Part shown: one piece after another, positions 19,557 to 44,652 of the stretch | How positions within the stretch are numbered: the stretch's first letter is position 1 | Layout: the number at the start of each line of letters is the position of its first letter | Source: Euzebya tangerina | Lineage (GTDB): Bacteria > Actinomycetota > Nitriliruptoria > Euzebyales > Euzebyaceae | Reading direction: 5' to 3' | Assembly: GCF_003074135.1 (NCBI RefSeq) | Contig: NZ_PPDK01000001.1 | Span: forward strand, 1 to 64,000 | Length of the DNA stretch: 64,000 nucleotides | Notes under the pieces: model-generated | What the model was told of the DNA's origin: nothing | The model's database searches: none | What the model saw: the letters and a program-made list of their open reading frames with translations, nothing else | Program-made: the position numbers and the translations under genes

Positions 19557-20902
19557 CAGTCGGCTGGGTGCGTGGGCCATCGCAGCTCTCCGGCGACGAC
19601 GGTTGCGGCACAGGTGCCCGCGCCGGACCGGACGATCTGGGTCACGGCGTCAGCGGCGGCCACGCCCGGCAGGTAGAACACCGCCAGGTCCGCCCGCTTG
19701 CCGGGCTGAAGGGACCCCAGACGGTCGGCCAGCCCCAACGCACCTGCACCACCGAGCGTGGCCGCGTGGAGCAGTCGGTCGAACACATCGGGGGCGTCGT
19801 AGCCGCCGGCGAACGCCAGGTCGGCCAGCACCGCGAGGTCCTCCAGGGGGTCGAGCGAGGTGGAGGAGGACAGGGAGTCGGTGCCGACCCCGAAGGCCAC
19901 GCCTTCGCGCAGGAAGGCGGCGACCGGCGGATAGTCGACCCCGACGACGTGGTTGGAGCGGGGACACAGCGCCACGACGGAGCCGTGCTCGGCCACTCGC
20001 CGTCGGCCGTCCTGACCCAGATAGACACCGTGTGCGAGGTGGACGTCGGGCCCCAGCAGGCCCAGCTGCTCCACGAACTCGCTGGTGCTCAGGCCGGTCC
20101 CGCCCTGCTCGAGGATCGGCATCGGACGGCGGCTGACCACACGCAACCGGTCGGCCAGCGTGCCTGAGCCGCAGCGGAAGTACTCCTCCTCGCCGTCGGA
20201 CTCCGCGACGTGGATGTGGAGGCGGACGCCGAGCTCGCGGGCCAGGTGGGCCATGGCTCGGAGCACGGACTCGTCCAGGCTGTAGGGCGCGTGGGGCGAG
20301 ATGCCAACGGAGGTCACCTCGCTCGTGGGTGCCGTGGCGACGGCCTCTCGGAGCTCGTCGCCCACACTGCCCGTCCACTGGTCGGCATCGACGGCGATCA
20401 GTTCGAGGAAAGCGACGCCGGGGAGGCCGGCGTCGAGCAGCACGTCCCGGGCCTCGAAGTTGGTGACGATGTCGCTGACGCAGGTGACGCCGGCCGCCAA
20501 GGACCGGGCGACCCCCTGCTCAGCCGAACGCACCCAATCGCCGTCGGCCTGTCGGGCGTACTCCTCGTTGAACGCGATCGACCAGGCCGTGTAGTCCTCG
20601 TAGGGGGTCGAGCCGACGGCGGCGAAGGAGGTGTACTGCAGGTGGGTGTGGGCGTTGACCAGCCCAGGTGTGAGGACCCCGCGATGCTCGACGACCTGCG
20701 CGCCTGACCCGTCGGCAACGAGTTGCTCGGCGGTCCCCACGTCCGTGATGATCCCATCACGGACGGCGACGGCTCCCTCCGGGATCGGGGGGCTGACGAC
20801 CGGGAGGACCACGTCCGCGACGTGGATTTGACGCGATCGTGCAGAAACCCGCGCATGCGTGGGTTTCTGCACGATCGTGTCGACGGCGGGCCGGTCGGTC
20901 AC
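19556..20902 (-). CDS. Amidohydrolase, probable S-adenosylhomocysteine/purine-nucleoside deaminase
   Basis: A 448-residue metal-dependent amidohydrolase of the chlorohydrolase/MtaD-DadD branch. Metal ligands: H85 and H87 in LVNAHTHLQYT, a histidine in GISPHAPYSLDES, one in LHIHVAESDGEEEYF, and the aspartate in GVGTDSLSSSTSLD. This subfamily deaminates adenine nucleosides such as S-adenosylhomocysteine, methylthioadenosine or aminofutalosine. Two adenosylhomocysteinase-type genes directly upstream favour S-adenosylhomocysteine (inference). The GTG at 20902 forms a GTGA overlap with the upstream stop, as elsewhere in this operon. The first 25 residues are unlike the family and contain the translation of a 44-bp palindrome (residues 9-23). 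Conserved sequence begins at about IHVADVVLPV. Confidence 0.85.
   Translation of the reverse strand: MTDRPAVDTIVQKPTHARVSARSRQIHVADVVLPVVSPPIPEGAVAVRDGIITDVGTAEQLVADGSGAQVVEHRGVLTPGLVNAHTHLQYTSFAAVGSTPYEDYTAWSIAFNEEYARQADGDWVRSAEQGVARSLAAGVTCVSDIVTNFEARDVLLDAGLPGVAFLELIAVDADQWTGSVGDELREAVATAPTSEVTSVGISPHAPYSLDESVLRAMAHLARELGVRLHIHVAESDGEEEYFRCGSGTLADRLRVVSRRPMPILEQGGTGLSTSEFVEQLGLLGPDVHLAHGVYLGQDGRRRVAEHGSVVALCPRSNHVVGVDYPPVAAFLREGVAFGVGTDSLSSSTSLDPLEDLAVLADLAFAGGYDAPDVFDRLLHAATLGGAGALGLADRLGSLQPGKRADLAVFYLPGVAAADAVTQIVRSGAGTCAATVVAGELRWPTHPAD
20834..20877. repeat. 44-bp near-perfect palindrome
   Basis: The 17-nt arms at 20834-20850 (CGATCGTGCAGAAACCC) and 20861-20877 are exact reverse complements. 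The 10-nt centre GCGCATGCGT continues the symmetry apart from one G-T pair, so the whole 44 bp is essentially self-complementary. It lies within the first codons of the deaminase gene, 21 nt from the ahcY stop. In RNA it would form a very stable hairpin. Confidence 0.9.
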
Positions 20903-22110
20903 CACCGAAGAGAGGCCTCCACCTGCGCGGGCGACGGAACGTCGATCGTGACCCCGACCGCGTGGAGTTGTGACAGGGCCACCTCGTCGTCGATGTGCTT
21001 CGGCAGCAGGTGAACTCCGACGGGCAGATCAGCTTCGACCAGGTAGTCGAGCGCCCGCATCTGCAGCGCCAACGACAGGTCCATCACCTCGATCGGGTTG
21101 CCCTCCGCTGCGGAGGTGTTCGCGCAGAACCCCTCGGCGATGACGAAGACGGTTGGGCCACCCGCCACCACCAGTTCCCGGACCCCCGGTCGAACCACCT
21201 CACCGAACTCCAGCACCACCCCGTCCGTCGGGGTCGGGTCGAACTCCGGAGGCCCCATGCCGCCCACCGCGACGATCGCCCCGTCCGGCATCGCCGCGAC
21301 GTGCTCAGCCGTGAGTGAGTGACCGATGCCGGAGGCGGTGATGACGACGTCGGCCCACGTCACAGCCTCAGCCACGGGCGCGACATCGTGACCGTCGTGG
21401 TGGGCTGCCAGCGCCTCGACCGGGTCGATCTCGGTCACGGTCACTCTCGCACCCAGTGCCCGGGCGGACGATGCGATGCCCTTGCCCACGCGGCCGTACC
21501 CGACGACCACGACGCGTTTGCCCTGCAGTTGGGTGTTGGTTACGTCCAGGACCGCCATGACGACGGACTGGCCCGTGCCGTGCACGTTGTCGAACAGCAG
21601 CTTGGTGCGGGCGTCGTTCACGGCGACGGCGGGCACCGCCAACGATCCGTCAGCGGCCATGTTCCGGAGCGGACGTACACCACTGGTCGTCTCCTCCGCC
21701 ACGCCGATCAGCCCCTCCAGAAGCTCAGGCCGGTCGGAGTGGAGGTACCTGATGACGCTCGCGCCGTCATCGGCCAGCAACTGCGGCTCGGTCGCGACGA
21801 ACGCCGCCCGTAGTTCGGCCGCCCGCTGGGCTGACGCGCCTCGTTCGGCGAAGACGGCGATGCCGGCCTCCCGCAGCGCGTCGGCGGTGGCGTCCTGCGT
21901 GGAGTTGGCCGACCCGGCAACCACCACTTCGGCGCCGAGCGAGTCCAGTGCCAGCGCCAGGTTGGCCGTCTTCGGCTCCAGGACCAGCGACAGGGCCACC
22001 CGCTTCCCCGCCAGCCGGCCGCCAGTGCGGGCGACATTGGTTGCCGCGGCGAGTGCGGGCATGTGCCGGCCAGCAAATCCGATTGCCCGCTGCCCGTGGG
22101 AGGCACTCAC
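20899..22110 (-). CDS. Adenosylhomocysteinase-family protein with altered active site
   Basis: A 403-residue paralog of S-adenosylhomocysteine hydrolase. The NAD-binding core is intact (KRVVVVGYGRVGKGIASSARALGARVTVTEIDP), as are ADDGAS, AEETTSG and the lysine/aspartate region NDARTKLLFDN. Three histidines normal for the substrate site are replaced: HLEAKTA-type is LVLEPKTA (V43), the GHxDxEID-type segment is GGMGPPEFD, and GHP is GNP (before IEVMD). The protein is therefore unlikely to be an ordinary hydrolase. It could act on another substrate, bind without catalysis, or pair with the intact paralog encoded just upstream (22107-23402). The GTG at 22110 forms a GTGA overlap with that gene. 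Confidence 0.88.
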   Translation of the reverse strand: MSASHGQRAIGFAGRHMPALAAATNVARTGGRLAGKRVALSLVLEPKTANLALALDSLGAEVVVAGSANSTQDATADALREAGIAVFAERGASAQRAAELRAAFVATEPQLLADDGASVIRYLHSDRPELLEGLIGVAEETTSGVRPLRNMAADGSLAVPAVAVNDARTKLLFDNVHGTGQSVVMAVLDVTNTQLQGKRVVVVGYGRVGKGIASSARALGARVTVTEIDPVEALAAHHDGHDVAPVAEAVTWADVVITASGIGHSLTAEHVAAMPDGAIVAVGGMGPPEFDPTPTDGVVLEFGEVVRPGVRELVVAGGPTVFVIAEGFCANTSAAEGNPIEVMDLSLALQMRALDYLVEADLPVGVHLLPKHIDDEVALSQLHAVGVTIDVPSPAQVEASLRW

Positions 22111-23402
22111 GACGCCTCCTCCCCGCTGAACAGCTCGCTGAGCGTGTCGGTCTGACTCACATCCAGCGCGTCGAGCGAGATCCCCCGACTGGCGAGCTTG
22201 GCTCTGGCGATCGCGTCATCAAGCTCCACCGGGAAGTCGTGGACACCCGGCGGCAGCGGCTCCCCGGAGGCGTCGGCGGCAGCCAGCAGGTGACACCCCA
22301 GGGCCTGCACGGAGAAGGAGAGGTCCATGATCTCGATCGGGTGCCCGAGCCCGCCAGCGATGTTGACCAGTGCGCCCTCGGCCAGGACGTAGACGTGTTT
22401 GCCATCCAGGTCGAGCTGGGTGACGCCCGGCCGGACCTCCTCCTCTGCCACTGCCAGGGCACGGAGGGCCGGCACGTCGATCTCGTGATCGTGGTGGCCG
22501 GCGTTGGCCAGGACCACGCCGTCGCGCAGCGCCGCCGCATGACCCTCGGACACCGCCCGGAGCCCACCGGTGGCCGTGATGACGATGTCGGCCGCAGCCA
22601 GCGCGGCCGCGATGTCGGCCACGTCGTGCCCGTCGGTGTGGGCCTCGAGCGCCTTGACCGGATCCACCTCGACCGCGGTCACCCGCGCCCCGAGGCCTGC
22701 GCAGTAGGTGGCGATCCCCCGGCCGACCCAGCCGTACCCGACGACCACCACCCGCTTGCCCGGCAACCGGAGGTTGGTGAGCTGGAGGATGGCCTGGACG
22801 GTCGACTGGCCGGTGCCGTACCGGTTGTCGAACAGGTGCTTCAGCTTGGCGTCGTTGGCGGCGATCGCGGGCATCGGCAGCCCGTCACGCTCGTGGAGTT
22901 GGACGAGTCGGGCGACGCCGGTGGTCGTCTCCTCCGACACACCTCGAACGGCGGCGTACTGCTCCGGCCGGTCGCGAGCCATCCGAATGGTCAGCTCGGC
23001 GCCGTCGTCGATGATGAACTCCGGACCGGTATCCGCCACGGCGAGCAGGTCCTTCTCCCACTCCTCGACTGTGGACCCCCTGGTGGCGTGGACCTGGATG
23101 CCGCGCTCGACCAGCGCCGCGGCGACGTCGTCCCGAGTGGACCAGGGGTTGGATCCGGCAGCCACCACGACGGCACCGGCATCCGCCAGCACCGTTGCCA
23201 GCAACGCCGTCTTGGCCTCCAGGTGAACGACAACTGCGACCCGCCTGCCCTCCAGCGACCCGTCGGAGAGCCGCCGACGGACCATCCCATCGAGCACCGG
23301 CGAGCGACGACGGGCCCACTCGATCGCCTGGTGCCCGGATGCCGCCCGGGCGGGTTCGGCGATCCTGCTCCACGCGGCCGCATCCGAGGCGCCGCTGCTC
23401 AC
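22107..23402 (-). CDS. ahcY: Adenosylhomocysteinase (archaeal-type), possibly S-inosylhomocysteine hydrolase
   Basis: A 431-residue NAD-dependent hydrolase that splits S-adenosylhomocysteine, or in some archaea S-inosylhomocysteine, to homocysteine plus nucleoside. Active-site elements are intact: HLEAKTA (H60), IDDGAEL, SEETTTG, NDAKLKHLFDNRYGTGQS, the NAD fold VVVVGYGWVGRGIATYCAGLGARV, AGHHDHEID and GHPIEIMD. The YGTGQS and HLEAKTA variants, and the absence of the insertion and long C-terminus of the eukaryotic/E. coli-neighbour type, match the shorter archaeal form. The GTG at 23402 overlaps the vapC stop as GTGA; the longer upstream frame is vapC shadow. The deaminase two genes downstream suggests the inosyl route. 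Confidence 0.92.
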   Translation of the reverse strand: MSSGASDAAAWSRIAEPARAASGHQAIEWARRRSPVLDGMVRRRLSDGSLEGRRVAVVVHLEAKTALLATVLADAGAVVVAAGSNPWSTRDDVAAALVERGIQVHATRGSTVEEWEKDLLAVADTGPEFIIDDGAELTIRMARDRPEQYAAVRGVSEETTTGVARLVQLHERDGLPMPAIAANDAKLKHLFDNRYGTGQSTVQAILQLTNLRLPGKRVVVVGYGWVGRGIATYCAGLGARVTAVEVDPVKALEAHTDGHDVADIAAALAAADIVITATGGLRAVSEGHAAALRDGVVLANAGHHDHEIDVPALRALAVAEEEVRPGVTQLDLDGKHVYVLAEGALVNIAGGLGHPIEIMDLSFSVQALGCHLLAAADASGEPLPPGVHDFPVELDDAIARAKLASRGISLDALDVSQTDTLSELFSGEEAS

Positions 23403-23824
23403 GAGCCGTCGTCCTCGACGGTCAAGCTGGCCGCATCCATCTGGAGCGCCATGATCGTGGCGATGCGCGCGAGGTCGCGGTCCTGGGCCAGGACTGGAAC
23501 GTCCTCGCTCTGCGCCACGGCAGCGATCATGCAATCGAGGAGGCCGCGGGGCGTGACCCCCCGTGCTCGACACGACCGGTAGATGGTCACCGCGCCGTCG
23601 AAGTGCGCCGTGGGACGAAACCGGAGCAGCGGGAAGCGGGCCATCATGCGACGCAACTGTTGCTCTCGGGCGGTGTCTCGTGCACCGGCCAGCACCTCCA
23701 TCACCACCGGCTCGGTAACAGCCACCCGGTTGGTCGTCGCGATGAGGGCGGTCAGCCGCCGATCGACCGCGCTTCCGGTCGCCCGGTCGAACTCCACCCA
23801 GGCCGAGGTGTCCACGAGGATCAC
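23399..23824 (-). CDS. vapC: VapC-type PIN-domain ribonuclease toxin
   Basis: A 141-residue PIN-domain protein. Acidic metal-binding residues are in the expected places: ILVDTSAWVEFDR (first Asp), EPVVMEVLAGARD (Glu), RGLLDCMIAAVA (Asp) and LAQDRDLARIA (Asp). VapC toxins cleave tRNA or rRNA. The GTG at 23824 overlaps the vapB stop as GTGA. Unusually, its own stop overlaps the start of ahcY in the same way, tying the module to downstream metabolic genes. Confidence 0.92.
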   Translation of the reverse strand: MILVDTSAWVEFDRATGSAVDRRLTALIATTNRVAVTEPVVMEVLAGARDTAREQQLRRMMARFPLLRFRPTAHFDGAVTIYRSCRARGVTPRGLLDCMIAAVAQSEDVPVLAQDRDLARIATIMALQMDAASLTVEDDGS

Positions 23825-24042
23825 GACGCGCGATCGGCACCAGGCGGGAAGACGTCATCCGGGACGTCGGCCATCGCATTGGTGCCACGCATCGCCAGCG
23901 CCTCGGCCCTCGTCATGGGGTCCGCGCTCAGACGCCGGAGCGCAAGATCGACCGCCTCGGTCTTCGTCGACAGTCCGTACCGTTCCATCACCGTCGCCAG
24001 AGCCTGATCGTCGATCTCTATGTTCGTGCGACTCCGGCCCAT
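23821..24042 (-). CDS. vapB: VapB-type antitoxin
   Basis: A 73-residue antitoxin: MGRSRTNIEIDDQALATVMERYGLSTKTEAVDLALRRL is the standard ribbon-helix-helix of VapB (type II, with R-T-N-I-x-I-D and the TKTEAVDLALR helix). The C-terminal tail NAMADVPDDVFPPGADRAS would contact VapC. The ATG at 24042 was preferred to a GTG at 24057, which would almost touch the stop of the ABC transporter ATPase gene. Only 15 nt separate it from that gene, so read-through from the transporter operon is likely. Confidence 0.88.
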   Translation of the reverse strand: MGRSRTNIEIDDQALATVMERYGLSTKTEAVDLALRRLSADPMTRAEALAMRGTNAMADVPDDVFPPGADRAS

Positions 24043-26827: not shown

Positions 26828-29800
26828 ATGGCCAACTTCCATGTGCAGACCGTGACAGTTCGTCGGACGTTGCCCGGCACGTTGGTGGTGGCCGTGGTGG
26901 CAGCGCTGCTCCTGGTCGGGCCGGCACCGGTTGGCGCGATGCCCCCCGATCCGGTCGACATCGACGCCGGAGGAAACCGGACCTGTTCGGTCACCGCCGA
27001 CAACGACGTGCGGTGCTGGGGTGTGGACGACTACGGCTCGGCCACACCGCCGACGGATCTGGACGATGCGACCTCGGTCTCCGTCGGGAGCAACCACGCG
27101 TGCGCCGTGACTGCGGCCGAGAGTGTGGTCTGTTGGGGGCTGAACGACGAGGGGCAGGCCTCACCCCCACCGCTGGTGGCCGTGAGCAGCGTGTCCGCCG
27201 GAGGCAGCCACTCCTGCGCCGTCGACGGCGGCGGCACGGTGACCTGCTGGGGTGACGACGCGTTCGGGCAGTCCACCGTTCCGGATGGGCTCGAGGCGGC
27301 GCAGGTCACAGCCGGCGGCAGCCACACCTGTGCCCTTCGGGTGCTGGAGGACACGGTGGTCTGCTGGGGCAATGGCGCCGACGACCGATTGGATGCCCCG
27401 GCCGGGGAGTTCACGGCCATCAGCGCCGGTGTCGGCCACACCTGTGGCGTGACCCTCACGGCGACGGTGGCGTGCTGGGGTCTGAGCGCCCAGGGTCAGG
27501 CGGCGCCTCCCGCCCTCACGGCGGTGACCGACGTCGTTGCGGGGGCCTCCCACTCCTGCGCCGTGCACTCTGACGGCCAGGTGGACTGCTGGGGGCTGGA
27601 CGACGTCGGCCAGTCGACGGTCCCGGCCGGCCTCGCCCCGATGGTGGCGGTCACGGCGGGGGTCGATGTGTCCTGCGCGCTCCCACCGACCGGGGAGCCC
27701 GTCTGCTGGGGCAAGGACGTCACCACACCCTCCTCACCGCCCGCGACGCTTGGTCTGATCGACGTCATCTCCTCCGGCGCCTCCGGCAGCTGCGCGATCA
27801 CCGTCACGGCCGCCATCAGCTGCTGGGGTGACGCGACGGTGAGAGGTCTGCCGCCGCTCACGCTCACGCAGGTGGTTGCGGTCTCGGTCGGCGACCAGCT
27901 CACCTGCGCGATCGACGGTGCCGCTGAGGCGGTCTGCTGGGATCAGGCCGGAGCGGTCGATCCCCCGATTGACCCAGGTCCGGTACGGGAGATCTCCACG
28001 GGTGGAGCCCACGTGTGCGCCGTCGGACGCGACGACGACCTGGTGACGTGCTGGGGCGCCGACGGGGACGGTCAGGCCACCCCGCCGGTCGGGTTGGGGC
28101 CCGTTCGGTCGGTGTCGGCCGGCGCTCGTCACACCTGCGCTGTGGACGATGATGCCGTGGTGGTCTGCTGGGGCGACGGCACTGACGATCAGACCAACCC
28201 GCCCGGCGATCTGCCCCTCGCAGCCGCGGTTGCAGCAGGTGAGGAGCACACCTGCGCGCTGAGCACCACCGGCACCGTGCGCTGCTGGGGTGGGGACACC
28301 TTCGGGCAGGCCACCAGACCTGGCGGCCTGGGCAATGTGGAGAGCATCGCCGTCGGCCCGCGGACGAGTTGCGCCCAGATCACCGGGGGCTCAGTCCAGT
28401 GCTGGGGTGATGACCGGCTCGTCCAGCCCGCTGCGACGGAGGCGCTGGAGCAGGTCTCCGTCGGCACGGACCACGTGTGCGCGATCGACATCGACAGCAG
28501 ACCCGTCTGCTGGGGAGCCGCACCGGGCGGCCTGCTCGGTGCCGACGCGGACCTGGTCGCTCCGGCCTTCCCCACCGTCGAGGTCGGACAGCCGGTGCGG
28601 TATCGGGCCTACACCACGGGGGCGCCGCTCCCGACCATCGAGGTGACCGATGGTGCCCTCCCTGCTGGCCTCTCCCTCTCCTCCATCGGCGTCATCACCG
28701 GCACACCCACAGAAGGTGGGCTGTTCACGGTCACCCTCACGGCTGCCTCCGGCGTGTTCGGACCGGCTTCTCAGGTCATCGACATCCTGGTCCTGACCGA
28801 CCCCGAGATCGACATCACACCCTCCAGTCCATCCGTGGCGAAGGGTGACACCGTCCAGTTGGCGGCCGCCGTCAGCGATGCGGACAACAACGACCCGGAC
28901 AATCCGGCGCGGGGACTGCGGGTCGACTGGGATCTTGACGACGACGGTCAGTTCGATGATGTGGAAGACGCGTTCGAGGTGTCGTTCGACGCCTCCGCGC
29001 TCGACCCCGGGACCTACGACGTCACCGCGCGCGTGACGGACGACGAGGACGACACGGCGACCGCAGCCGTGACCGTGACCGTGACGAACCAACTGCCGAC
29101 GGTGACGCTGAGCCCGACGAATCCGAGCGTGCGAGCAGGCGAATCCGTGGTGCTCACCGCGGCCGCCAGTGATCCCGATGGTGGACCGGTCGCGACCGCG
29201 TGGGACACCGACGACGACGGATCCTTCGATGACGCAGACGGAACGGCGGTCACGTTCACCACCGCTGGCAGAGGCCCCGGCACCTACCGGGTCGCCGTTC
29301 GTGTGACCGACGACGAGGGCGGGACGCGCATCCGCGCCACCACCGTCACGGTGACCGCCGCCCCGACCCCGACACCCACACCCACACCGACCCCGACACC
29401 GACACCGACACCGAGCCCGACCCTGGCCGCACCCACGATCACCGTTCAGGGGCCGGGCGCCGACGACCCGGCAGGACAGATCACCCTGGTGGTGACCGCG
29501 CCGGAGGCGGGACCGATCGACACCACGCCCGTCGCCGTGCTGGTCGAGGGGGCCGCTGACGTCACCGCGTCCGAGGACTGTGCCGTGGGAACCTCCGGCG
29601 TCGCCTGCAGCCTGGACAGCTTGGGGCCCGGGGAGCAGCGGAGCTTCGTGCTGGTGGTGCAGCCCGCTGGAGTGACACCGGTGACCGTGTCGGTGGCTGG
29701 GCAGGTCGTGGTCGTCGACACCCAGATCGCCGACGACCCGATCCCCTTCGCCATCCAGGTGTCGCGCGAGCGGTTCCCCCAACCGTCTGGACAGTCAGGG

Positions 29801-30673
29801 CGCGCCGCCGCGCACGTGGTGCTGTCCCGCAATGACGTCTTCGCCGACAGCCTGGGCGGCAGCGTATTGACCGCCGGAGCTCCACTGCTGTTCACCCCCA
29901 GCAGTGTGCTGGACGCCGCCACCGCGGCTGAGATCGATCGTCTGCTCGGTGGCACGGGGCTGGTCTACCTCCTCGGTGGCGAGGTCGCGCTGTCGCTGGA
30001 GGTGGAGGCGGCGCTGACCGGCGCCGGGTACGACGTGATCCGTCTGGCCGGCCCGTCACGGGTCGAGACCGCCGTGGCCATCGCCACGGAGCTCGAGCAG
30101 GCCCAGGGACCGGCCCGGGAGGTAGCGATCGCCCGAGCTGACTCACCCGCAGGCAACCCCACGGCTGCGTGGGCCGACGCGGTCACGGCCGGCGGCTGGG
30201 CGGCGGACACCCTGAGCCCGATCCTGCTGAGCCCCACGTCGGGACTGCACCCGGCGACGGCTGCCTTCCTCAGCGGCCGGCCCGACGCATCGATAACGCT
30301 GCTGGGTGGCGATTTCGCCATCGGGGACGCGGTCGAGGATGCGCTGGTGGATCGGGCACCGAACCGCATCGCGGGGGTCAACCGGTACGCCACGGCCGCC
30401 GCGGTGGCGGCGGGTCTTTGGGATGCGCCAGCCCAGGGTCGGATCCTCGCTCCCGGTGGGTCGGAGGACGGCTGGGCCTTCACGCTGGCCACTGCCGGTC
30501 TGGCCGCCGACACGGATCAGCCGGTGCTGCTGACCGAACTCGACCGACTACCGGCCGAGACGGATGCAGCGCTCTGCACGGCAGAGGGGCGGCGGCCGTT
30601 CCTCCTGTTGACCCCCGCCGACCGGACGGACGCCGCGGTGACAGCGACTGTGGCGGCCGCGTGCCAATCCTGA
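26828..30673 (+). CDS. Large cell-surface protein: RCC1 repeats, PKD-type domains, CWB2 anchor
   Basis: A 1281-residue exported protein. The signal peptide ends near VGA (about residue 37). Residues about 45-570 are 14 RCC1-like units, each carrying an xxCA-type cysteine and a CWG (once CWD) cysteine, which fits two seven-bladed propellers with one disulfide per blade. Next come a putative-Ig (He_PIG) domain (575-657), two PKD-like domains with DLDDDGQFDD/DTDDDGSFDD (658-840), a Thr-Pro linker (846-865), a further beta domain, and from about 976 to the end three cell-wall-binding type 2 repeats (SRNDVFADSLGG, VYLLGGEVAL, ITLLGGDFAIGD). CWB2 repeats hold proteins to wall polymers. The role is probably binding or display; no enzyme motif is seen. 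Confidence 0.9.
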   Translation: MANFHVQTVTVRRTLPGTLVVAVVAALLLVGPAPVGAMPPDPVDIDAGGNRTCSVTADNDVRCWGVDDYGSATPPTDLDDATSVSVGSNHACAVTAAESVVCWGLNDEGQASPPPLVAVSSVSAGGSHSCAVDGGGTVTCWGDDAFGQSTVPDGLEAAQVTAGGSHTCALRVLEDTVVCWGNGADDRLDAPAGEFTAISAGVGHTCGVTLTATVACWGLSAQGQAAPPALTAVTDVVAGASHSCAVHSDGQVDCWGLDDVGQSTVPAGLAPMVAVTAGVDVSCALPPTGEPVCWGKDVTTPSSPPATLGLIDVISSGASGSCAITVTAAISCWGDATVRGLPPLTLTQVVAVSVGDQLTCAIDGAAEAVCWDQAGAVDPPIDPGPVREISTGGAHVCAVGRDDDLVTCWGADGDGQATPPVGLGPVRSVSAGARHTCAVDDDAVVVCWGDGTDDQTNPPGDLPLAAAVAAGEEHTCALSTTGTVRCWGGDTFGQATRPGGLGNVESIAVGPRTSCAQITGGSVQCWGDDRLVQPAATEALEQVSVGTDHVCAIDIDSRPVCWGAAPGGLLGADADLVAPAFPTVEVGQPVRYRAYTTGAPLPTIEVTDGALPAGLSLSSIGVITGTPTEGGLFTVTLTAASGVFGPASQVIDILVLTDPEIDITPSSPSVAKGDTVQLAAAVSDADNNDPDNPARGLRVDWDLDDDGQFDDVEDAFEVSFDASALDPGTYDVTARVTDDEDDTATAAVTVTVTNQLPTVTLSPTNPSVRAGESVVLTAAASDPDGGPVATAWDTDDDGSFDDADGTAVTFTTAGRGPGTYRVAVRVTDDEGGTRIRATTVTVTAAPTPTPTPTPTPTPTPTPSPTLAAPTITVQGPGADDPAGQITLVVTAPEAGPIDTTPVAVLVEGAADVTASEDCAVGTSGVACSLDSLGPGEQRSFVLVVQPAGVTPVTVSVAGQVVVVDTQIADDPIPFAIQVSRERFPQPSGQSGRAAAHVVLSRNDVFADSLGGSVLTAGAPLLFTPSSVLDAATAAEIDRLLGGTGLVYLLGGEVALSLEVEAALTGAGYDVIRLAGPSRVETAVAIATELEQAQGPAREVAIARADSPAGNPTAAWADAVTAGGWAADTLSPILLSPTSGLHPATAAFLSGRPDASITLLGGDFAIGDAVEDALVDRAPNRIAGVNRYATAAAVAAGLWDAPAQGRILAPGGSEDGWAFTLATAGLAADTDQPVLLTELDRLPAETDAALCTAEGRRPFLLLTPADRTDAAVTATVAAACQS
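29363..29422 (+). repeat. Thr-Pro-encoding short tandem repeat
   Basis: Twenty codons alternate Pro and Thr (once Ser), built from 6-nt units such as CCGACA and CCCACA. They encode residues 846-865 of the surface protein, an extended linker between the PKD-type part and the C-terminal anchor region. It is prone to length change in steps of two codons. Confidence 0.9.
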
Positions 30674-41976: not shown

Positions 41977-44652
41977 TCAGCGGGCGGTGAAGACGCTGAT
42001 GGCCTCCGTCCGCGAGCGGACGTCGAGCTTGGGGTAGATCCGGTACAGGTGGTTGGCGATCGTCTTCGGGCTGAGGTGCAGCGCCGACGCGATCTCCCGG
42101 TTGCTCTTGCCGGTCGCGAGCAGCAGCATGACCTGCCGCTCCGCGTCGGTCAGGTCGAAGGGATCCGGAGTCGCCTCGGCGCTGGTCAGACGGAGCCAAC
42201 CCTCGGCCCCCAGCTGACCGAGCGCCAGCCGAGCTTCCCGCGCATCCCTCTCCGCCAGGTCGGCTTCCCCAGCGGCGTCGTACAGCTGGGCTGAGCGCTG
42301 CATCGCCCGGGCCCGGTCGAAGGCGTCGACGACTGGATCCAGCACCTGCGTGGCACGGTCGACGTGTCGGCGGGCCAGTGACGGGTCGGTGCTGAGGATC
42401 GCCTGGCTTCGCGCCGCCACGCCGACCGTCCATCGGGTCGCCCCGGGTCGGGCGGCCTCGGCCTCCAGCCAGGTGCAGATCGCCGCAGCATCGTCATCTC
42501 GACCGTCGGCATGGTGCAGCTCGATCAGCTCGGGCGCCCAGCGGCCGAGCGTCGGTGCCAACGTTCCCCCCAGCTCCTCGAACAGCCGGCACTCCTCCAT
42601 CGCCTCGACCGCCCCGGCCGTGTCCTCGCCGACGCGTCGCACGGTCCCGGCGGCAGCGGAGAGGAAGTACCGCGCCCCGACCAGAGACAACTCCTCGGCG
42701 ATGACCAGCCCCAACTCGAGGTCCGCCTCGGCGTCCGGCTGACGACCCTGCAGCGCGTGCAGCCGGCAGCGGATGGCCAGCCAGAAGGGGGCGAACGCCC
42801 GTTGGCCGGTCGACAGGCTGAGGGCGATCGCCTCGGATGCCGTCCGGACCCCCTCGGTCCAGCGACAGGCCCGAAGTTGGATCTCGGCCATGGCCCCGAG
42901 CGTCATGGCGAGGGTCGGGCCGCCGTACCGGCCACGGCTGACGGCACGCAGGTCGGCCATGACCCGGTCGGCGTCGTCGAAGCGCTCGGTCAGGCCCAGG
43001 GGCCGACCGATGTGCAGCCCGATCATGGGGTCGATGGCGATGACCTGCTCGACATCGAGTTCGGGCAGGATCTTCTCGAGGAGCGACTCGCCGTGTCCCT
43101 CGCGGATCGCAAGGCTTGCGTGTGCCAGCGTGGCCGCGGCCATGGTGGCGATCGGTGAGTCCTCCGGCGCCAGGTCCAGGGCGACCTGCGCCTCTTCCTG
43201 GATCTGACGGGTCATCCCCAACATCCCGAGCGGCATGGCCATGCCGGCGTGGATCTGCGAGCGGACGTCGGCGCGGCGCTCCACCCGTGCGGCGTCCTGC
43301 AGCCGCTGCAGGGAGTCGAACGGGGCACCGTTCAAGGTCTCGAGGATCCCGAGGGTCAGGCTGGCCTCGGACCGGAGCTCGTCGTCGATCGTCTCCCCGA
43401 CCAGCGTCCGCAGCCGCTGGATCGCGGCGGCCACCGAGCCACCGGAGGCCAGGTTGCGGCACGCGCGCAGGGTCCAGCGGTCCACCAACGCCGGCTCCGC
43501 GACCAGACGGGCGGCCATCAGCCACAGCCGTCCTGCCTCGCCGGGTGCGCCACGTCGCTCCAGCCGGTCAGCTTCGAGAGCAGCTTGCTCCGCGATGCCG
43601 GCGTCCGTCCCCATCGTCGCGCCAGCCTGGTGGACCAGCCTGGCGTGGTCGCTGAGCCCCGGCACCCGCGCCAGCCGCGCGTGGAGGTCGCGCTGCTCGT
43701 CGGGCGAGAGATCAGCCAGCACGGCGGACCGCAGCAGCGGGTGGGAGAACTCCACGCTGCGGTCCTGAAGGCCCGCCAGTCCGTGTCGCTCGGCCTGCGT
43801 CAACAGCTCGTCGGCGGCCGAGCCGACCGCGGCTCGCACCACCTGCCAGCTCCCGTCGGTCGAGGTCGCTGCCAGGCGCAGCAGGTCGAGCACCTCGCCC
43901 TCCACAGCCTCCAGCGGCCGCGAGACGATGGCCTGCAGGTGGCCACTCAGCGGCAGCGGGTCAGGCAGGAGTGTCCGTCCCGTCAGCTCGTCCTCGGAGA
44001 GCCCCTGGGCGAGGTAGATCAGCGCCAGCGGATTGCCGACGGCCGAGTGGATGAGCACCTCGGCCACACGTGGGTTGATGTGTCCCTCCACCGTGGTGGC
44101 CAGCAGCTCGTTCGCGGCCGCGCTCTCCAGCCCAGGAAGCTCGATCACCCGTAGGCCATCGGTGAACTCGAGCACCGTCTCGGTCGGCCGTCCCGCGAGG
44201 ACCACGAGGACAGCTGCGTCCTGCAGCCGCCGAAGCGCCAGGCTGAGGGTGGTGCGGCTGATCGGGTCGACATCGTGCAGATCGTCGATGAACACGGCCG
44301 TCGGGCCCCGATCAGCGGCGTCGCGGAGGACCTGCTCCAGGGTCTGTGCCACACCCCAGACCTCGTCCTCCGCTGGTCGTGACCCGTCGTCAGCCAGTCG
44401 GGCCAGCAGTTCATCGACCAGACCGAACGGCATCGGAGAGGGTCCTGCGTACCCGACCAATGAGACGACCTGCCGTGCGGGGCAGCGCTCATGGGTCCGG
44501 ACGGCACCGCGGAGCGCTCGCATGACGGCTGACTTGCCCATGCCCGCGTCGCCCGTCAGGACCACCACGCGAGCTTCGCCGGCAGCAGTCCGCTCCCACT
44601 CCGCCAAGAGCGAACGCAGCACTCGGCTCCGCCCGAAGAGCTGCGGGCTCAC
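41977..44652 (-). CDS. LuxR family regulator with AAA-type ATPase (LAL/MalT-like)
   Basis: An 891-residue signal-transduction ATPase. Walker A is GDAGMGKS (residues 34-41), Walker B is AVFIDDLHDVDP, and a sensor-like VLVVLAGRP follows. A long helical, TPR-like middle region (about 330-800) precedes a C-terminal LuxR helix-turn-helix: LTDAERQVMLLLATGKSNREIASALHLSPKTIANHLYRIYPKL. Such proteins integrate nucleotide and ligand signals and activate transcription. The GTG at 44652 overlaps the stop of the upstream lipoprotein gene as GTGA, and polyprenyl diphosphate synthase lies before that. Its targets are unknown. Confidence 0.92.
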   Translation of the reverse strand: MSPQLFGRSRVLRSLLAEWERTAAGEARVVVLTGDAGMGKSAVMRALRGAVRTHERCPARQVVSLVGYAGPSPMPFGLVDELLARLADDGSRPAEDEVWGVAQTLEQVLRDAADRGPTAVFIDDLHDVDPISRTTLSLALRRLQDAAVLVVLAGRPTETVLEFTDGLRVIELPGLESAAANELLATTVEGHINPRVAEVLIHSAVGNPLALIYLAQGLSEDELTGRTLLPDPLPLSGHLQAIVSRPLEAVEGEVLDLLRLAATSTDGSWQVVRAAVGSAADELLTQAERHGLAGLQDRSVEFSHPLLRSAVLADLSPDEQRDLHARLARVPGLSDHARLVHQAGATMGTDAGIAEQAALEADRLERRGAPGEAGRLWLMAARLVAEPALVDRWTLRACRNLASGGSVAAAIQRLRTLVGETIDDELRSEASLTLGILETLNGAPFDSLQRLQDAARVERRADVRSQIHAGMAMPLGMLGMTRQIQEEAQVALDLAPEDSPIATMAAATLAHASLAIREGHGESLLEKILPELDVEQVIAIDPMIGLHIGRPLGLTERFDDADRVMADLRAVSRGRYGGPTLAMTLGAMAEIQLRACRWTEGVRTASEAIALSLSTGQRAFAPFWLAIRCRLHALQGRQPDAEADLELGLVIAEELSLVGARYFLSAAAGTVRRVGEDTAGAVEAMEECRLFEELGGTLAPTLGRWAPELIELHHADGRDDDAAAICTWLEAEAARPGATRWTVGVAARSQAILSTDPSLARRHVDRATQVLDPVVDAFDRARAMQRSAQLYDAAGEADLAERDAREARLALGQLGAEGWLRLTSAEATPDPFDLTDAERQVMLLLATGKSNREIASALHLSPKTIANHLYRIYPKLDVRSRTEAISVFTAR

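Follow-up and report, generated by a model that had tools for sequence, protein, structure and literature searches.

The window, that is, the whole stretch of 64,000 nucleotides of Euzebya tangerina DNA analyzed here, carries at 26828–30673 (+) an ORF of 1281 residues that contains the entire feature: a run of repeats, a set of stalk domains, and a CWB2 anchor. The protein starts with a signal peptide (residues 1–37; 26828–26938, +), which was read from the sequence by eye and features an RR n-region, an LVVAVVAALLLVG core, and a likely cleavage near PVGA/MPPDP. The genes on either side run on the opposite strand: one flank holds an amino-acid-type ABC transporter, the other a phosphoglycerate mutase and subunits of NADH-quinone oxidoreductase. 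Hence, the propeller gene stands alone. A promoter scan yielded 0 sites compared with 0.1 expected and is thus uninformative. Throughout the 4.78 Mb genome, the Pfam model RCC1_2 gives 9 matches at E 0.001, all of them within this ORF. Elsewhere in the window, two adjacent and slightly overlapping genes (20899–22110 and 22107–23888, −) both match adenosylhomocysteinase, and a large regulator among the nuo genes (41977–44652, −) has a LuxR-type helix-turn-helix at its C-terminus and a weak match of the kinase/cyclase type.

The signal peptide is followed by 14 compact repeats of ~38 residues with a unit spacing of 36 to 40, which reach from residue 53 to 561 as judged by the Cys positions and span about window 26954–28543. 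The repeats carry 28 cysteines, namely one pair in each of the 14 units: 53/63, 92/102, 130/140, 168/179, 206/216, 244/254, and 283/293 in units 1 to 7, and 322/332, 360/370, 397/408, 437/447, 476/486, 515/525, and 551/561 in units 8 to 14. The spacing within the units is CX9C in 12 and CX10C in two, and four cysteines (918, 927, 1250, and 1279) lie outside the repeats. RCC1_2 matches the ORF at E 2.7e-66, above its cut-off and with 9 stretches passing individually, and the RCC1-like model WD40_RLD at E 2.1e-44; as judged by these sequence scores, the repeat and domain matches are not chance. A sequence-only reading of this DNA had placed 14 two-cysteine repeats with 28 cysteines at 26900–28560. 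Count and Pfam matches confirm these numbers, and the range agrees with that of the units. The CWG motif that it had assigned to each repeat is found at the second cysteine of 13 units, but unit 9 (Cys 370) reads CWD. The propeller region (26954–28543) is strongly acidic and nearly lysine-free, with 50 Asp, 13 Glu, 14 Arg, and one Lys among 530 residues.

The 14 units are predicted to form two propellers, delimited by AlphaFold and structure comparison. Propeller 1 comprises units 1 to 7 (residues 38–298; 26939–27721, +) with seven three-stranded blades and 7 Cys pairs; propeller 2 comprises units 8 to 14 (about residues 299–575; 27722–28552, +), likewise with 7 Cys pairs and including the CWD of unit 9. 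The AlphaFold model of residues 38–660, which holds all 14 repeats and was built from a 7-row alignment, has a mean pLDDT of 71.7 and a pTM of 0.51. Ten-residue blocks within the repeats mostly lie at 75 to 93 and loops dip to 45 to 68; the pLDDT falls to 45 to 46 near units 7–8 and is under 50 beyond about residue 565. Units 1 to 7, modeled separately from an 11-row alignment, reach a pLDDT of 90.4 and a pTM of 0.87 and feature 21 strands arranged as seven triplets. Comparison of the 14-repeat model with known structures by VIA-align yielded two groups of matches, one per half. The first half (model 7–266) fits CR4 (7a0k) with a Z of 27.2 and an rmsd of 2.4 over 244, and the second half (model 262–518) fits BLIP-II (3qhy) with a Z of 31.4 and an rmsd of 2.0 over 247, the second ring being matched over model 262–543. 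The rows that span both halves are led by RCC2 (5gwn; rmsd 3.6), with a few others at an rmsd of 13 to 18. The propeller-1 model is closest to UVR8 (Z 33.9) and BLIP-II (Z 32.7, rmsd 1.6 over 239); the plant ectodomains of ACR4 (Z 28.0) and CR4 (Z 27.8) rank below UVR8, BLIP-II, RPGR, and HERC2. Both AlphaFold models and the structure comparison support two propellers of seven three-stranded blades each, which stand as predictions. These data support what had been proposed from the sequence: seven blades appear in the model of units 1 to 7, and known rings fit each half.

Each blade is probably pinned by one predicted disulfide, as strand positions in the models and the cysteines of relatives suggest. 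If the second and third strands of a blade pair in register about their hairpin, the start of the second strand plus the end of the third strand, as assigned by DSSP, should equal the sum of both Cys positions. This holds for 12 of 14 units in the 14-repeat model—the sums deviate by 1 in unit 9 and by 2 in unit 14—and for 7/7 units in the propeller-1 model, both counts standing without a control. As judged by where the strands begin and end, both cysteines of a unit would thus face each other. The relatives were surveyed with a cysteine-blind HMM and alignment-based scoring in 55 related ORFs, the window being excluded and ORFs without the motif being admitted. Among 451 units, 370 carry both cysteines, 72 neither, and nine a single one. 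Counted by ORF, 41 are paired throughout, one is mixed, and 13—all from genomes outside the class—have no pair at all; pairing is mostly a trait of the whole protein, and, hence, the 451 units are not independent. Eight of the nine single-Cys units are of the "HCLAL" type, whose cysteine precedes the paired site by one residue, and the ninth (L110, YTCMGL) resembles a paired site lacking its partner. In ORFs selected by the motif, including that of the window, the same scoring gives 384 units with both cysteines and one with neither. The genome has matches for DsbB (E 1.5e-13) and for a DsbA-type Thioredoxin_4 (E 3.6e-7), and a search of it for VKOR, with which DsbA usually works in actinobacteria, gave no match. 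One disulfide per blade, as put forward in the sequence-only reading, is supported only indirectly, by the strand positions and by the tendency of relatives to have both cysteines or neither.

Of the 66 genomes of the class, 19 match the repeat region, that of the window among them, which leaves 18 of 65 others; across the phylum, a search at E 1e-15 gives matches in 19 of 396 genomes, again counting that of the window. Two of the three other genomes of the genus (G023 and G024) carry no match to the repeat region, which marks the propeller gene as accessory. The set of relatives consists of 49 stretches around the listed matches and six named loci, with G012:C131 and G373:C128 among those left out; the blade counts cover untruncated runs of at least 4 units outside the window, 4 truncated runs having been set aside. 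Among the 24 untruncated compact runs, 11 have 7 units, five have 14, and two have 21; the remaining six have 4, 5, 8, 15, 16, and 16 units. The binomial p of 3.5e-11 for multiples of seven assumes independent runs, although several share a genome. The runs of 4 and 8 belong to one ORF (L040) and are separated by a step of 107 residues that might conceal two degenerate units. As judged by these sequences, compact relatives mostly, but not always, have whole rings of seven. Long-unit relatives have seven units in five of 12 runs and no multiple of seven in the other seven. The two ORFs with 21 compact units (L097 and L096) would hold three presumed rings in tandem. In another genome of the class, an Hsp70 domain and seven compact paired-Cys RCC1 units share one ORF (L070:4052-8101, +)—an odd combination of a chaperone-like ATPase with a propeller that is likely exported. 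A further paired-Cys propeller (L042) lies on a contig titled as a Klebsiella pneumoniae MAG; it has the longest branch in the tree and, hence, the organism label may be wrong.

The double propeller likely arose by duplication of a seven-blade ring, as judged by sequence comparison. A tree built from 36 blocks of seven units groups propellers 1 and 2 as sisters (97/86*), but its bootstrap had not settled, and the tree program flags both as long branches whose grouping may be spurious. L073, with a run marked as truncated, is not part of this tree. The match of unit i with unit i+7 is 39.9%, compared with 35.3 to 38.3% at the other cyclic offsets, which is a weak signal.

Two alternatives to this architecture bear on the rings and on the staples. 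A single large ring, or two rings of unequal size (for example 6+8), could be expected from the relatives with 15 and 16 units, from a WD40 protein of 15 blades that is predicted as 7+8 (PMC9218822), and from the low model confidence around the presumed boundary of the two propellers. However, units 1 to 7 alone close into a confident ring, most matched rings fit one half of the 14-repeat model only, and 7, 14, and 21 units are favored among the relatives; we hold such an arrangement to be very improbable. There is equally slight reason to expect that the cysteines bind metal or remain reduced. In the models, the pairs lie opposite each other on adjacent strands, and in the relatives, the two cysteines of a pair are nearly always present or absent jointly; the protein bears a signal peptide and its genome encodes DsbB, even if the lack of a VKOR match would suit reduced cysteines.

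The propellers are followed by a putative Ig domain (He_PIG; residues 579–642, 28562–28753, +), identified by Pfam at E 4.4e-8, and by two PKD domains, for which Pfam yields two stretches at E 3.3e-14. PKD domain 1 lies at 28805–29086 (+), a range taken from its neighbors because Pfam gave a range for the better PKD stretch only, and PKD domain 2 at 29087–29353 (+; about residues 754–842). A linker of Thr-Pro repeats, visible in the sequence at 29354–29452 (+), connects the PKD domains to three CWB2 cell-wall-binding repeats at 29699–30544 (+), which are covered by Pfam and a structure-database match. CWB2 matches in three stretches with an E of 1.4e-26 and 93.3 bits compared with a cut-off of 24.9, and the region (query 958–1239) matches Cwp8 (5j6q) at E 5e-14. 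PILL-type motifs are found at residues 1019 (PLLF), 1131 (PILL), and 1232 (PVLL); the latter two, in the second and third repeat, fit P[ILV][ILV][ILV], and the first repeat has PLLF. The SlpA model NF033435 reaches an E of 3.1e-13 on the ORF but scores 49.4 bits, far below its cut-off of 650. PKD domains and three anchors had been named beforehand from the sequence and are confirmed by Pfam; the three CWB2 repeats, as a sequence feature, support anchoring of the propeller protein to the wall. Genome-wide, at least 163 CWB2 matches were counted with 150 of 339 first-look candidates scored. At three per protein, this would be some fifty or more proteins, and CWB2 anchoring seems to be heavily used in this genome; C. 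difficile has 29 CWB2 proteins according to the part of PMC4973711 drawn on here.

A Pfam scan of 17 relatives for anchors found CWB2 in one (L073), SLH in one (L102, with seven units in the same ORF), and neither in 15. The chromosomal seven-unit ORF of E. pacifica has no CWB2 of its own, and an adjoining ORF on the same strand has. On the E. pacifica plasmid (NZ_CP031166.1), there is an overlap between an RCC1-type gene and one whose annotation reads cell wall-binding repeat-containing protein. Both RCC1-type loci of E. pacifica (L076:6668-10719, +; L117:4873-8176, −), hence, adjoin a CWB2-bearing ORF of the same strand. These pairs look as if the fusion of the window existed as two genes; chance is possible, CWB2 genes being common.

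The protein is best read, with a probability of roughly 0.7, as a secreted and wall-anchored display protein that carries a disulfide-stapled double propeller on a stalk with a CWB2 anchor and binds a ligand. Its role is most likely that of a rigid, surface-displayed binding platform, as fold, location, and stalk suggest. After export, the 14 paired-Cys units are predicted to fold into two consecutive seven-bladed propellers of the RCC1/BLIP-II type. One disulfide across the hairpin of the second and third strand would staple each blade—this draws on the strand positions and on the joint occurrence of the cysteines in relatives—and the staples may keep the rings rigid outside the cell. The Ig and PKD domains and the Thr-Pro linker would, by domain type, serve as the stalk; the CWB2 triplet would, by homology, hold the protein on a wall polymer; and the faces of the propellers may bind a putative protein or glycan ligand.

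Other roles start from single parts of this protein. It could be a structural wall or S-layer-like component, with the double propeller as a spacer or lattice element and not a ligand binder: the CWB2 repeats match C. difficile S-layer proteins, and CWB2 matches are many in the genome. Such a role is rather unlikely given that the genome holds a single RCC1_2 ORF and that two of the three other genomes of the genus show no match, which argues for an accessory rather than a core part of the wall. Inhibition of beta-lactamases or related wall enzymes in the manner of BLIP-II would suit the shared fold and unit length and the close fit of propeller 1, but is quite unlikely as judged by sequence. 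In the printed alignment, several BLIP-II blades carry Phe, Tyr, or Trp on the face three positions before the first Cys, aromatics that we take to be binding hot spots. At this position, just before the usual His, none of the 14 units has an aromatic residue (four Ser, two each of Asn, Asp, and Arg, and one each of Gly, Gln, Ala, and Glu). In addition, BLIP-II, to our knowledge, has no wall anchor.

On a wider scale, it is possible, though doubtful, that bacterial envelopes hold a little-described class of stapled "crinkly" propellers with varied anchors, a counterpart and possibly the source of the CRINKLY4 ectodomain. Its members would mostly feature whole rings (7, 14, or 21 units) and be anchored by CWB2 or SLH within the same protein or by way of a neighboring CWB2 gene; the protein of the window would be a doubled, wall-anchored member. 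The protein offers a clean bacterial test case for blade count, Cys pairing, and ring closure on one exported protein and connects propellers on bacterial surfaces with the CRINKLY4 ectodomain of plants. The ligands of CRINKLY4 are still debated.

The ectodomain of CRINKLY4/ACR4 from plants (PDB 7a0j, 7a0k) likewise consists of extracellular C(X~10)CWG units of about 39 residues, with seven per receptor and predicted stabilizing disulfides, as described in the part of PMC4617170 used here. In a profile search of the PDB, ACR4 (1.1e-41) and CR4 (8.7e-37) lead ahead of UVR8 (8.6e-27) and BLIP-II (9e-27), the profile being biased toward ACR4/CR4 by its origin from paired-cysteine sequences; in both alignments, Cys sits on Cys. 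In a single-sequence search of the PDB, CRINKLY4 (1.6e-21) ties with BLIP-II (4.9e-21), and by structure, it ranks lower, as given above for propeller 1. CRINKLY4 has one propeller and the protein of the window two. The plant receptor carries TNFR-like repeats, a membrane helix, and a kinase (PMC4617170, in the part used), whereas the window protein carries PKD domains and CWB2. Identity as a CR4 receptor was rejected, as no kinase or TNFR model of Pfam matches the ORF at E 1 and PKD, He_PIG, and CWB2 are present instead.

BLIP-II of Streptomyces (PDB 1jtd, 3qhy) is also a seven-bladed RCC1-type propeller of compact units and a secreted actinobacterial protein. However, it is a single propeller and shows no cysteines in its rows of the printed alignments, whereas the window protein has paired ones. 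UVR8 and the RCC1-like domains of RCC1, HERC, and RPGR share the seven-bladed fold, with UVR8 as the top match of propeller 1, but their units are longer, and they are intracellular. The Cwp/SlpA family of C. difficile likewise features a CWB2 triplet and PILL-type motifs; the parts of PMC4973711 and PMC5842191 drawn on mention no RCC1 propeller for it. There, CWB2 triplets anchor wall proteins to the ligand PSII, with all three repeats required (PMC4973711), and PILL is said to help the three domains pack and not to bind PSII (PMC5842191). L073, from a genome of the same order (G016), is similar in layout, a single ORF joining seven compact paired-Cys units to three CWB2 stretches; it has a single propeller as far as visible, the contig ending at the 5' side of the ORF.

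Among repetitive propellers, RCC1/BLIP-II proteins form a large group found mostly in bacteria; the same source (PMC9218822, in part) also cites a WD40-type protein whose 14 blades fold into two rings of seven. Within the open-licence literature, no description of two stapled rings on a CWB2 anchor was found, nor was a paired-Cys RCC1 propeller class found named in bacteria. The sequence-only reading had called the protein an unusual extracellular use of the RCC1 fold. This was overstated: BLIP-II is secreted, and the paired-Cys repeat of plants is published (PMC4617170, in part). The claim is further weakened by the RCC1-type matches in the other genomes of the class and by the CWB2 or SLH joined to the repeats in two of the 17 scanned relatives. 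The protein is not very unusual because CRINKLY4 ectodomains, secreted BLIP-II, and L073 already show its parts. It does not represent a mechanistically new kind of system: every element is already known, and the double stapled ring on CWB2 follows known logic.
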